From Aneurinibacillus uraniidurans (GTDB lineage: Bacteria; Bacillota; Bacilli; Aneurinibacillales; Aneurinibacillaceae): DNA of 64,000 bases. Shown here one piece after another: positions 10,538-14,072 of this stretch. The position numbers and the translations under genes are program-made. The stretch is taken from assembly GCF_028471905.1 (NCBI RefSeq), contig NZ_CP116902.1, positions 3,570,001 through 3,634,000 on the forward strand, read 5' to 3'. Numbering within the stretch: position 1 is the stretch's first letter; every line of letters starts with the position of its first letter. The notes under the pieces were generated by a model. It saw only the letters and a list, made by a program, of their open reading frames with translations, was not told the DNA's origin and did no database searches.

Positions 10538-11731
10538 TTACCTAAGGGAGGGTGAATTTGATAGAGAAAGCGCCTGAGTAAAATCAGCCTGCAAATCTGC
10601 CGCTTCTTCCAGCCCGACCGAAAGGCGGACAAGCTTACCTGTAATCCCGATCGCACGACGCACTTCTTCCGGAATGCTTGCATGTGACATGCGAATCGGA
10701 TGCGTCAAAATACTCTCCACTGCTCCGAGACTCACCGCAAGTGCCGGGATTTTCGTCCGTTCCAGAAACGATTCCGCCTCTTCCTCTGTACGGAATTCAA
10801 ACGAAACAATCCCGCCAAACCCAGATGCCTGCCGCGTCGCTAACTCATGATCCGGATGATCAGCAAGCCCCGGATAATACACCCGTTCAATTTGCGGCTG
10901 TTCCGAAAGCCAGCGAGCTAGCGCAAGCGCTGTCGCCTGGTGCTGGTCAAGCCGGATTTTTAACGTCTTCAATCCGCGAAGTAAGAGCCATGAATCCTGC
11001 GGGCCAAGAATGGCACCGAACGAATTCTGCACAAAATATATCTCCTCCGCCAGATCTTCCGCAGCTACAACCACAAGACCACCCACCACATCACTGTGCC
11101 CCCCAATGTATTTGGTCGCACTATGCACCACAATATCCGCTCCAAGCGCAAGCGGCTTCTGCAAATACGGGGTCATAAACGTGTTATCCACTACCGTTAG
11201 AATCCCATACTGCCTGGCAATTGCCGATACAGCAGCAATATCGGTAATTTTCATCAGTGGATTGGACGGTGTTTCAATAAAAATCATTCGTGTCTCTGGC
11301 GTGATTGAAGCCGCCACTGCCTCCAGGTCCGTCATATCAACGAACTGCGGCTCAATGCCAAAGCGTGGAAACAACCGAGTCAGCACCCGATACGTACCGC
11401 CATAAATATCACGGGAGATCAGCACCTTATCCCCCTGATTCAACAAACAAAATACAGAGGAGATTGCCGCCATCCCGGATGCGAACGCGAACCCTGCATA
11501 CCCACCTTCCAGCTGCGCAATCGTATTCTCCAATGCTTTGCGAGTCGGGTTGCCGGATCGGGAATAATCAAACGCTCCCTCTCCCGCTAGTGCCCGTTGA
11601 TCAAATGTCGAAACCTGGTACACCGGAACGTTTACCGCACCATACGGCTCCGCAATTCCTGTCTGAGCATGGATGAGCCGTGTGCCAAACGACGAATTTT
11701 CATCATAAGCGTCAACAGTATGAGTAAGCAT
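10538..11731 (-). CDS. metC: Cystathionine beta-lyase
   Basis: 397 residues, Cys/Met-metabolism PLP enzyme. PLP lysine in SATKYIGGHSD, substrate-pocket DYSRSGNPTR and the ETPSNPLMKITDI block are all present. It cleaves cystathionine to homocysteine, pyruvate and ammonia. The start overlaps the last 20 nt of metI and has GGAGG upstream, giving translational coupling. MetC versus cystathionine gamma-lyase is decided here by the metI-metC order under a SAM riboswitch, which matches Bacillus; sequence alone would leave some doubt. Confidence 0.88.
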   Translation of the reverse strand: MLTHTVDAYDENSSFGTRLIHAQTGIAEPYGAVNVPVYQVSTFDQRALAGEGAFDYSRSGNPTRKALENTIAQLEGGYAGFAFASGMAAISSVFCLLNQGDKVLISRDIYGGTYRVLTRLFPRFGIEPQFVDMTDLEAVAASITPETRMIFIETPSNPLMKITDIAAVSAIARQYGILTVVDNTFMTPYLQKPLALGADIVVHSATKYIGGHSDVVGGLVVVAAEDLAEEIYFVQNSFGAILGPQDSWLLLRGLKTLKIRLDQHQATALALARWLSEQPQIERVYYPGLADHPDHELATRQASGFGGIVSFEFRTEEEAESFLERTKIPALAVSLGAVESILTHPIRMSHASIPEEVRRAIGITGKLVRLSVGLEEAADLQADFTQALSLSNSPSLR

Positions 11732-12860
11732 GAAGGACCTCCTTTATATCCGCGAGAATATCGTCTACATTTTCAATACCGACCGACAGACGAAGCAAGC
11801 GGTCTGAGATACCAAGCTGCTTTCTTGTCTCTTCGGGAATGTCTGCATGTGTCTGACGTGCTGGAAATGTAATTAGACTCTCTACACCACCGAGGCTTTC
11901 GGCAAATGTGACAAGCTTCAGATTTTCCAGCAAGTATGAAACAAGTTCCTCTTCCTTCACTGTAAACGACAGCATGCCGCCTGCACCGGATGCCTGCTTC
12001 CGGTTCACTTCATACCCCTCATGATTTTCAAGCCCCGGATAATACACGGCCTCGATCTGCGGTTGTTTACAAAGCCACTCGGCAATCACCTGTGCATTAT
12101 ACTGCTGCCGCTCCATGCGCAGCGCCAGCGTTTTCAATCCGCGCAGCAACAGCCATGAATCCTGCGGACCAAGAATGGCTCCTATCGCATTCTGAATGAA
12201 TCTAATTCGCTCACCTAACTTCTCATCCTTCGTCACGACCAGACCAGCAATCACATCATTATGTCCACCAAGATATTTAGAAGCGCTGTGAATGACAATG
12301 TCTGCACCAAGCTCAAGCGGTTTCTGTAAATACGGCGTCATAAATGTATTGTCTACAATCGTTAACAACCCGTGTGCCTTCGCCAGCGCGACTACACAGG
12401 GAATATCACTTATTTTCATCAATGGATTGGTTGGGGTTTCAATAAAAATCCCTTTTGTGTCTGACTGAATAGCTGCCTCAACCTCTTTCAGGTTACTCGT
12501 ATCAACAAAGCTCGCCTGCACCCCATACACATTCAGCACTTCTCGAAGCACACGATACGTACCCCCGTACAAATCTTCCGTTACGATCAAATGATCACCC
12601 GGCGCAAACAGATGTAGCACAGCCGTTACCGCTGCCATACCGGAAGCAAACGCCGAAGCAACTGCCCCCTTCTCCAATCTGGCCGCTGCATCCTCCAGAA
12701 CAGTTCGGGTCGGATTGGCCGTTCGGGAATAATCATATCCTGTGCTCTCCCCAAGCTTTGGATGAGCAAATGTCGCCACCTGATAAATCGGTGGGCTAAC
12801 CGCCCCTGTCTGCGGATCTCTTCCGATACCTGCTCGCACTAACTCTGTTTCAATATGCAT
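11712..12860 (-). CDS. metI: Cystathionine gamma-synthase / O-acetylhomoserine thiolyase
   Basis: 382 residues from the ATG at 12860, which has GGGGAG 9 nt upstream; the longer open frame to 12956 runs into the riboswitch terminator and is not translated. PLP lysine in SASKYLGGHND, DYSRTANPTRTVLEDA pocket and IETPTNPLMKISDI are visible. It condenses an activated homoserine with cysteine to form cystathionine, the substrate of the overlapping metC. It is directly controlled by the SAM-I riboswitch ahead of it, so methionine sufficiency shuts it off. Confidence 0.9.
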   Translation of the reverse strand: MHIETELVRAGIGRDPQTGAVSPPIYQVATFAHPKLGESTGYDYSRTANPTRTVLEDAAARLEKGAVASAFASGMAAVTAVLHLFAPGDHLIVTEDLYGGTYRVLREVLNVYGVQASFVDTSNLKEVEAAIQSDTKGIFIETPTNPLMKISDIPCVVALAKAHGLLTIVDNTFMTPYLQKPLELGADIVIHSASKYLGGHNDVIAGLVVTKDEKLGERIRFIQNAIGAILGPQDSWLLLRGLKTLALRMERQQYNAQVIAEWLCKQPQIEAVYYPGLENHEGYEVNRKQASGAGGMLSFTVKEEELVSYLLENLKLVTFAESLGGVESLITFPARQTHADIPEETRKQLGISDRLLRLSVGIENVDDILADIKEVLHAYSYC

Positions 12861-12890
12861 GTTCCTGCTCCCCTCTATAATAAAGTCCAC

Positions 12891-13078
12891 AAAAAAACAC
12901 CCTTCACAGATGGAAGGGTGTTGGATGCAGCGGTCCGCTCGTCTGCTACCTCTCATCTGTTAGAACACGTATGTTCTACAGGAATTAGCACCGTTCACAC
13001 AATTGTCTATACAGACCATTCATGTGATGGTTGCCGGGCATCATCGGGCCAGTCCCTCCGCCTCTCTGGATAAGAGAA
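12891..13078 (-). promoter_or_regulatory. SAM-I (S-box) riboswitch with terminator
   Basis: On the minus strand the conserved S-box blocks appear in order: TCTTATCCAGAGAGGCGGAG, GGACTGGCCCGATGATGCCC, GGCAACC, GGTGCTAATTCC and AGATGAGAGG. A terminator follows (AACACCCTTC / GAAGGGTGTTTTTTT, 12891-12922). SAM binding should promote termination ahead of metI-metC. Confidence 0.97.
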
Positions 13079-13130: not shown

Positions 13131-13226
13131 CCGCATTTTCATGGGTAACATTAACAAAATAGATTTTCACCATCAGGGAAGCTTAATAGGTGTAACGCAC
13201 ATTACAAATTTATTGAGGTGACATTC

Positions 13227-13418
13227 ATGAAAAAGGTAATCGCATTTACATTAGCAGCATGTGTTGCCGGTTTTACGCTCCCAGCCTTCGCCGCTACTCC
13301 TGATACAACGCACAAAGCAAAACATCACCATCACCATAAAAAGGTGCATGCTAAGCATCATGGAAAAATGCATATTAAGGGACTGCCTAAGACAGGCTAT
13401 GGCGGCGCAAGCGAATAA
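13227..13418 (+). CDS. Small secreted His-rich protein with C-terminal LPKTG motif
   Basis: 63 residues from the ATG at 13227 (GAGGTGA 5 nt upstream). Residues 1-22 are a signal peptide (MKK, hydrophobic core, AFA cleavage site). The mature 41 residues contain ten histidines, including HHHHH at 33-37, plus many lysines, so metal binding is plausible. Residues 53-57 are LPKTG, followed only by YGGASE: there is no hydrophobic anchor or basic tail as in a classical cell-wall sorting signal. A sortase gene follows 65 bp downstream beyond a strong terminator, which suggests enzyme and substrate. Function unknown. Confidence 0.8.
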   Translation: MKKVIAFTLAACVAGFTLPAFAATPDTTHKAKHHHHHKKVHAKHHGKMHIKGLPKTGYGGASE

Positions 13419-13419
13419 A

Positions 13420-13449
13420 CAAAAAAAAGGGGGGCTTCCCCCTTTTTTG
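13420..13449 (+). terminator. Terminator between the His-rich protein and sortase genes
   Basis: A8-GGGGGG-CTT-CCCCC-T6. It would make the substrate mRNA more abundant than any read-through into the sortase gene. Confidence 0.85.
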
Positions 13450-13483
13450 TACTGTGCACTATTAATTCAGAGGGGAAAATAAC

Positions 13484-14005
13484 ATGAGAATCCTAACCTG
13501 TCTTCTCTTGATCGCTATTTTTTTCTTTCCTTGCTCAACGATTGACGCCCATACTTCAAAAGCATTTGTACCCGTTCGTATCGAAATACCTCAGATTAAA
13601 CTTAAAGCTGCTGTAGAACCTGTCTCCGTACTGGCAAATGGACAAATGGGGGTCCCACCTTCCTTTGAAAAAGTAGGCATTCTCACGCCTTGGACAAAGC
13701 CAGGTGAACCAGGCAATGCTGTGATTGCGGGACACTTCGACCACTATACAGGACCGGCTATATTTTATCGCCTAAGGGAATTAAAACGTGGTGATAAAAT
13801 TTTTTTATACAACAGGAAAAATGACAAGCTTGTTTTTACTGTTAAAAATGTAGAATCATTTATGACCAAAAAAGCACCTTTAGAAAGAATATTCGGGCCC
13901 TCATCCAACGCTCAATTAAATTTAATTACTTGTAGTGGTAAATTTAATAAAAAAACACGTGAACATACCCAACGTCTTGTTGTGTTTGCTGAAATTTCCC
14001 CGTAA
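13484..14005 (+). CDS. Small sortase (class D/F-like)
   Basis: 173 residues; AGAGGGG is 9 nt before the ATG. An N-terminal hydrophobic stretch (residues 3-20) serves as signal or membrane anchor. The sortase catalytic triad is complete: His84 in AGHFDHY, Cys150 in LITCSG, Arg164 in HTQRLVVFA. It lacks a C-terminal membrane segment, as in class D/F enzymes. Sortases cut at LPxTG and join the threonine to an amine acceptor; the neighbouring tiny LPKTG protein is the obvious candidate substrate. The class assignment is by size and motif context, not by alignment. Confidence 0.88.
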   Translation: MRILTCLLLIAIFFFPCSTIDAHTSKAFVPVRIEIPQIKLKAAVEPVSVLANGQMGVPPSFEKVGILTPWTKPGEPGNAVIAGHFDHYTGPAIFYRLRELKRGDKIFLYNRKNDKLVFTVKNVESFMTKKAPLERIFGPSSNAQLNLITCSGKFNKKTREHTQRLVVFAEISP

Positions 14006-14047: not shown

Positions 14048-14072
14048 CCTGGCCCTGAGCCGGGATTTTTTT
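14048..14072 (+). terminator. Sortase gene terminator
   Basis: CCTGGC-CCTGA-GCCGGG followed by A-T7, about 40 nt after the sortase stop. Confidence 0.65.

Follow-up and report, generated by a model that had tools for sequence, protein, structure and literature searches.

The 64,000-nucleotide stretch of DNA analysed here (the window) carries a two-gene unit in which a very small secreted protein, ending in a sortase-type pentapeptide without the hydrophobic tail, is encoded directly upstream of a class F-like sortase, and this pair recurs among Bacilli behind a promoter that resembles those of the forespore sigma factors. We judge the chances to be even that the pair is a sortase unit of the developing spore, in which the substrate is produced in the forespore, exported to the closed gap that separates it from the mother cell and attached there to the nascent spore wall, the compartment taking the place of the tail. 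The sequence features, the pairing and the promoter are computed, and from them we infer expression, location, chemistry, anchoring and purpose. If true, this reading would establish sortase substrates of a tail-less kind. It would also provide class F sortases with their first role in endospore formers, a testable one in the making of the spore, and pose the wider question of whether retention signals are relaxed in closed compartments.

The small protein, a putative sortase substrate rich in Lys and His, has 63 residues and is encoded on the plus strand at 13227-13418 (ATG at 13227, stop codon at 13416-13418), with the ribosome-binding site GAGGTGA readable in the sequence at 13215-13221. 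Its Sec-type signal peptide, MKKVIAFTLAACVAGFTLPAFA (13227-13292), ends in an AFA cleavage site of the AxA type common to the homologues and leaves a mature part of 41 residues, with 10 His, 8 Lys/Arg and 2 Asp/Glu, whose C-terminal end is GLPKTGYGGASE. The region at 13383-13415 holds an LPXTG-type pentapeptide, LPKTG (13383-13397), followed by YGGASE only and then the stop codon; a hydrophobic segment after LPKTG is absent from the window protein, as are basic residues at its extreme C-terminus, which is Ser-Glu. The first-pass annotation had described a tiny His-rich LPKTG protein without a membrane tail beside its own sortase, and this description is confirmed.

Because a terminator-like hairpin followed by a T run (computed; stem at 13423-13448, plus strand) lies directly 3' of the substrate stop codon, between the two genes, no hydrophobic segment follows. 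Similar G+C-rich hairpins were seen by eye between the genes in most homologous loci, and another terminator-like hairpin lies 3' of the sortase gene (14048-14064, plus strand). A frameshift or read-through into a tail was rejected, given the terminator right after the stop codon and the conservation of tail-lessness. Genome annotation picks out sorting signals through the hydrophobic tail, and if the tail-less substrates are real, it would miss the whole class, since PF00746, the classical anchor domain, has no match in the window genome, and none of five small proteins scanned against NCBIfam and Pfam scored above the cut-off of any family.

Also rejected was a lipidated substrate, in which Cys12 of the signal peptide would serve as a lipobox replacing the tail. 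Four sequence features count against it: the Lys3-Cys12 spacing is only 8 residues, Val, Leu or Ile frequently occupies the position preceding the Cys (-1), a cleavage site of the AxA type is usual near residue 22, and Cys12 is absent in 5 of 57 substrates. The other 52 do have this Cys (codon 13260-13262 in the window). Upstream of the pair and not part of it, a SAM riboswitch on the minus strand (RF00162, 87.6 bits; 12950-13076, or 1068-1194 of locus L038) precedes divergent minus-strand genes (11712-12956) that resemble sulfur amino acid genes; a search for Rfam elements upstream in 15 loci returned none except the SAM riboswitch of the divergent genes.

The second gene (13484-14005, plus strand) encodes a sortase of 173 residues, which matches Pfam PF04203 (E 9.9e-24) and for which class F is the best of seven NCBIfam sortase models (128.8 bits, E 1.3e-37, against E 0.001 for the class D model). 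Because this score lies under the curated class F cut-off of 166 bits, we call the enzyme class F-like, a label drawn from the profile matches, the predicted structure and the class F annotation carried by relatives at 43-51% identity on Bacilli plasmids. When the class F model (NF033748) was run on 41 genomes, the Bacilli enzymes scored up to 131.9 bits and none of the 41 reached 166, and it seems that the cut-off misses this Bacilli branch. Catalytic His84, Cys150 and Arg164 (codons 13733-13735, 13931-13933 and 13973-13975, plus strand; assigned from sequence and alignment) are where the first-pass annotation had placed them, and the triad is identical in 86 of 86 aligned sortase loci. An AlphaFold2 model made with 47 homologues (mean pLDDT 89.5) matched solved sortases of classes C, A and E in Foldseek (best E 1.2e-10), and the window enzyme combines the sortase fold with the His-Cys-Arg triad. 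It is the only sortase found in its 3.85-Mb genome. A strict lipobox pattern, which undercounts the sortase lipoboxes visible by eye, occurs in 31 of 61 partner sortases; the window sortase has a degenerate lipobox only, and may instead be held by a signal anchor or even not be membrane-bound at all.

A tail-less [LM]P[KRS]TGxGG[AT]S protein lies directly upstream of a homologous sortase in 61 genomes from four families of Bacilli, 6 of them in the window's own family (f1), 18 in f23, 36 in f5 and 1 in f52. The first-pass annotation had suggested looking for other small proteins of the LPKTGxGG type near sortases as a check on whether the two genes are conserved together; they are, and this supports its idea of a minimal, putative substrate that has no membrane tail and comes with a sortase of its own. 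A sortase search of 101 related genomes found a tail-less small protein adjoining the sortase in the window and its six closest relatives. Among the 11 genomes of f1, those with the tail-less motif protein are the same 6 that carry the sortase, and the 5 without a sortase lack the protein too, so that the pairing is not due to chance. Two FPGTG pattern matches in this family (G004 and G006) were dismissed as lying inside an unrelated long frame. G007 has in addition a second tail-less MPKTGLGGASEIEE protein, L039 (C7:148534), unlinked to the sortase.

In f23 (39 genomes), the sortase was found at E < 1e-50 in 18 genomes, each of which encodes a tail-less substrate next to it; three pattern matches in sortase-less genomes of this family (L062, L076 and L077) were judged to be chance frames. 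The motif search of 295 genomes of f5 matched 36, with the protein tail-less in 36/36 and a sortase in the locus in 36/36, f5 having been tested in the direction from motif to sortase only, as the pattern search came first. In the f52 genome (G299), a tail-less substrate of another protein type stands beside the sortase. A scan of the genome contigs yielded two poor loci only. The class F-like enzyme is the sole sortase, and PF00746 is without a match, in G000, G005, G010, G117, G284 and G299. In the 14 genomes searched for both, 6 of 7 PF00746 matches lie at most 6 kb from a different sortase, one not of class F; ordinary tailed substrates thus accompany the ordinary sortase.

The C-terminal ends of 57 substrates with a clear start conform to [LM]P[KRS]TGxGG[AT]S[EDN], with 6 to 9 residues after the TG and no hydrophobic run in all 57, and the last residues are acidic or polar in nearly all. 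The set leaves out L067 (G035; neither start codon nor signal peptide clear), L126 and L135 (no clear MKK start), L125 (which runs off its first locus, its start having been found later) and L050, and takes in the unlinked L039 of G007. Part of the uniformity of the motif follows from the search pattern itself; the 18 f23 loci depend on it less, because they came from a whole-family sortase search in which no f23 sortase was without such a partner.

Upstream of the window gene, on the plus strand, a de novo motif places a -10-like element, GGGAAGCTTA, at 13176-13185, 51 nt before the start codon, and a position weight matrix places a -35-like element, AAATAG, at 13157-13162, 13 nt before the -10 element. 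The motif came from a Gibbs sampler run on 42 non-redundant upstream regions with ribosome sites excluded, which found GGAnATnaTA in most of them, mostly 45-61 nt before the start codon, with a log-likelihood of 406.6 (best of 25 starts) as against 240.1-263.9 for four shuffled sets (best of 8). Bases resembling nHATR lie 13 to 16 nt upstream of it, with one T constant in the 37 aligned rows that make up the matrix, five of the 42 regions having been left out as without a placed site. The window promoter, AAATAG-N13-GGGAAGCTTA, has a middling pair score of 10.5, or 9.3 with f1 held out of training.

A site of at least 10 bits at 44-63 nt upstream was found for 49 of the 57 substrates, a count that includes the training rows, as against 5 of 343 controls, these being the upstream regions of other frames of at least 150 codons, taken mechanically and with non-genes included. 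With the matrix cross-trained between two groups, sites of at least 8 bits in place were found for 16/24 and 13/33 substrates, against 8/343 and 3/343 controls. The eight substrates below 10 bits are L042, L040, L069, L152, L123, L130, L131 and L173. In L042 and L040 (G007 and G010), CCTAC...GTAGG-type inverted repeats overlap the promoter region and are possibly a regulator site. No forespore-type site was found for L123 or L125, the two long tail-less proteins of f5 (345 residues and a 612-codon open frame, respectively). L050, a different tail-less protein that was outside training, has a 12.9-bit site whose distance of 42 nt falls slightly short of the 44-63 nt range, and L039 has one of 12.1 bits with its family held out of training.

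The gene spoIIR is transcribed by sigma-F and the SASP genes by sigma-G. The substrate matrix, applied to spoIIR, found sites at 9 bits in 12 of 29 (GTTTA..GGACATACTG or GGACATAATG) where shuffles gave an expectation of 2.9, the strong matches being nearly all in f5 and the scores in f1 low; applied to SASP genes, it found CATAATA-type sites in 8 of 30, against 1.9 expected. The first scan, which used a fixed sigma-F consensus, had shown a modest enrichment (29 of 57 with at least 10 matches, against about 9.8 expected from shuffles). Comparison with alternative sigma factors (sigma-B, sigma-A) was limited to one sigma-70 scan, in which the window had no sigma-70-like site upstream on the plus strand. 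In the accessible text of a study of C. difficile, sigma-F promoters are told from sigma-G promoters by a conserved G on the upstream margin of the -10, and the C. difficile consensus is described as closely resembling the B. subtilis one (PMC3789822). The substrate promoter resembles forespore (sigma-F/G-like) promoters, and these statistics, which fit sigma-F/G, may reflect sigma-F-dependent expression in the forespore. Between the two locations named in the first-pass annotation, the wall and the spore surface, the promoter statistics point to the spore. The gene spoIIR is present in all 30 tail-less genomes tested and in G299, and in G568 it is split in two pieces.

In B. anthracis, as far as the accessible parts of the two papers go, sigma-F polymerase directs expression of the BasH precursor in the forespore, secretion takes the precursor to the compartment enclosed by the two membranes, and SrtC anchors BasH to m-Dpm there (PMC3297441); in vegetative cells, a reporter ending in a tail-less LPHTG was released to the medium only (PMC3208642). 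Taken with the spoIIR and promoter data, these reports suggest that containment in a closed compartment takes over the role of the tail. Sigma-F, alone or together with sigma-G, would transcribe the pair in the forespore, and the precursor would be exported across the forespore membrane to the sealed gap facing the mother cell, signal peptidase cutting it at the AxA-type site. As the substrate could not diffuse out of this sealed space, a hydrophobic retention tail would be dispensable and would have been lost. A sortase held in the forespore membrane would recognise LPKT-G together with GxGGAS, cleave between Thr and Gly with release of GYGGASE, and attach the basic peptide to the newly forming spore peptidoglycan through an amine, probably that of meso-diaminopimelate. 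The germ cell wall or the cortex would thereby acquire a layer of positively charged peptide held by covalent bonds. Polyanions, metals and coat proteins are possible partners of such a basic, disordered layer, and we make no strong choice among them. To the more specific proposal, that a class F-like sortase confined to the forespore couples soluble peptides rich in Lys and His to the spore wall as it forms, the signal being the pentapeptide plus GxGGAS and the compartment replacing the membrane anchor, we give slightly less than even credence.

Some observations run against a strict exchange of tail for compartment. In 28 genomes searched because of tailed-type pattern matches, spoIIR scored above the cut-off in 8, and all 8 are among the 19 of the 28 in which tails were read; the tailed-substrate genomes thus include 8 spore formers, which we counted against the compartment explanation. 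In favour of the compartment explanation, on the other hand, none of 10 tailed-substrate promoters of spore formers has a site of at least 10 bits at 44-63 nt. L123 and L125, tail-less and without a forespore-type site, break the rule, and BasH itself retains a sorting signal of the usual kind, so that a compartment does not force the loss of a tail. Also counted against the spore reading were the eight substrates below 10 bits, the middling score of the window promoter, the low spoIIR scores in f1 and the class F score of the enzyme, which is under the cut-off.

An alternative, much as the first-pass annotation had proposed, is that growing cells secrete the peptide and that a sortase on the outer face of the membrane captures it while it is translocated or shortly afterwards and joins it to the wall or to lipid II. 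The strict pairing and the motif conservation would fit any sortase model, and this one is further favoured by the membrane-held sortase that the lipobox of 31 of the 61 partners implies and by the tail-less L123 and L125; however, the forespore-type promoter in 49 of 57 substrates and the want of a plus-strand sigma-70-like site upstream in the window argue against it, as does the loss of the tail-less LPXTG reporter to the medium of vegetative B. anthracis, although that experiment, as far as the accessible text goes, concerned other sortases (PMC3208642). On balance, we regard attachment in growing cells as unlikely.

The cores of 56 small substrates are 30-75 residues long (median 51), with 0-13 His (median 9) and a net charge, counted from Lys, Arg, Asp and Glu, of +4 to +19 (median +12); their overall composition is 26.7% Lys and 16.6% His, and the mature small protein is probably a disordered peptide. 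Pilus-type class C sortases join substrates to lysines. Their presence among the fold matches, and the Lys content of the cores, would suit a reaction in which the Thr end is joined to Lys of other copies, or of coat or cortex proteins, to give a branched basic polymer around the spore; this is improbable, in that no conserved pilin-like acceptor motif was noted and the Foldseek matches to classes A and E are about equally good.

The ten His among 41 residues in the window protein, together with the median of 9 in the cores, might instead mean that His-based metal binding on the wall is the main purpose and basicity incidental, as the first-pass annotation had supposed in proposing a metal-binding tag. 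The sortase-linked homologues of G007 and G010 have 0 and 2 His, the lowest numbers among the substrates, and they keep the same sortase type and motif; basicity (Lys/Arg charge), and not His, is on this evidence the constant feature of the small substrates. Metal binding through His is thus not a conserved property, positive charge being what the cores have in common, and a metal tag as the main purpose is quite improbable.

In other Bacilli, homologous sortases adjoin larger proteins in which MPxTGxGG is followed by a hydrophobic segment and a basic end. These proteins share with the window pair the extended motif and the homologous adjacent sortase, but they differ in size and in having the tail, no forespore-type promoter was found for them, and many of their hosts are without spoIIR. 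Because homologous sortases elsewhere are paired with tailed MPxTGxGG proteins, the hydrophobic tail was, to judge from sequence, probably lost in the small substrates. In a maximum-likelihood tree of 86 sortases, one clade (support 100/98) holds 58 of the 61 partners of tail-less proteins, the exceptions being those of L123, L125 and L050, and the tail-less label changes three times on the tree, against a shuffled mean of 21.7; the L050 sortase is on a very long branch and its position is unsure. It is very improbable that the sortase merely cuts the tag, freeing the heptapeptide GYGGASE or the basic peptide as a free product or signal. The piece that would be cut off, GxGG[AT]S[EDN], is indeed short and hardly varies, but the same GxGG opens the tails of the large membrane-tailed partners and is better read as part of the recognition motif.

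The proposed spore unit resembles B. anthracis sortase C with BasH and BasI in that a sortase is at work during sporulation and, in the case of BasH, the substrate is forespore-made (PMC3297441 and PMC3208642, accessible parts). It differs in that sortase C is placed in class D in the available portion of PMC13251363 and goes with LPNTA, whereas the window enzyme is nearest class F and goes with [LM]PKTGxGG and a tail-less substrate; the window pair has neither the LPNTA motif nor the class D enzyme of the SrtC/BasH type. BasO of B. anthracis likewise has an LPXTG-like motif, LPHTG, without a hydrophobic tail, but it is treated, in the text available, as a protein without a sorting signal, and its end failed to anchor the vegetative reporter (PMC3208642). 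Class F, the best profile match of the window sortase, is the class of known enzymes of actinobacteria (Propionibacterium acnes, Actinoplanes missouriensis); in the accessible sections of PMC13251363 the physiological roles of class F sortases are described as unknown, deletion of four of them together in A. missouriensis gave no phenotype, and no tail-less partner of the actinobacterial enzymes is described. Our search of the literature for class F sortases in Bacillus or spores, forespore sigma-F sortases, Paenibacillus and MPKTG found no such protein, which is weak evidence, most subscription journals lying outside the search.

Two profile matches of the small proteins concern their composition. 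Asr-type acid-shock basic proteins (NF033636) are alike in having a signal peptide and Lys/His-rich repeats, but they are not known to have a sorting motif; the matches are weak and sub-threshold (E 6.7 and E 0.023), and the likeness is likely one of composition only. L132 (1273-1542) gave a sub-threshold match to NF053514 (BLB8/JUQZ-1 family; E 4.5e-4, 20.5 of 40 bits) that covers the signal peptide and the basic core and probably reflects composition as well.
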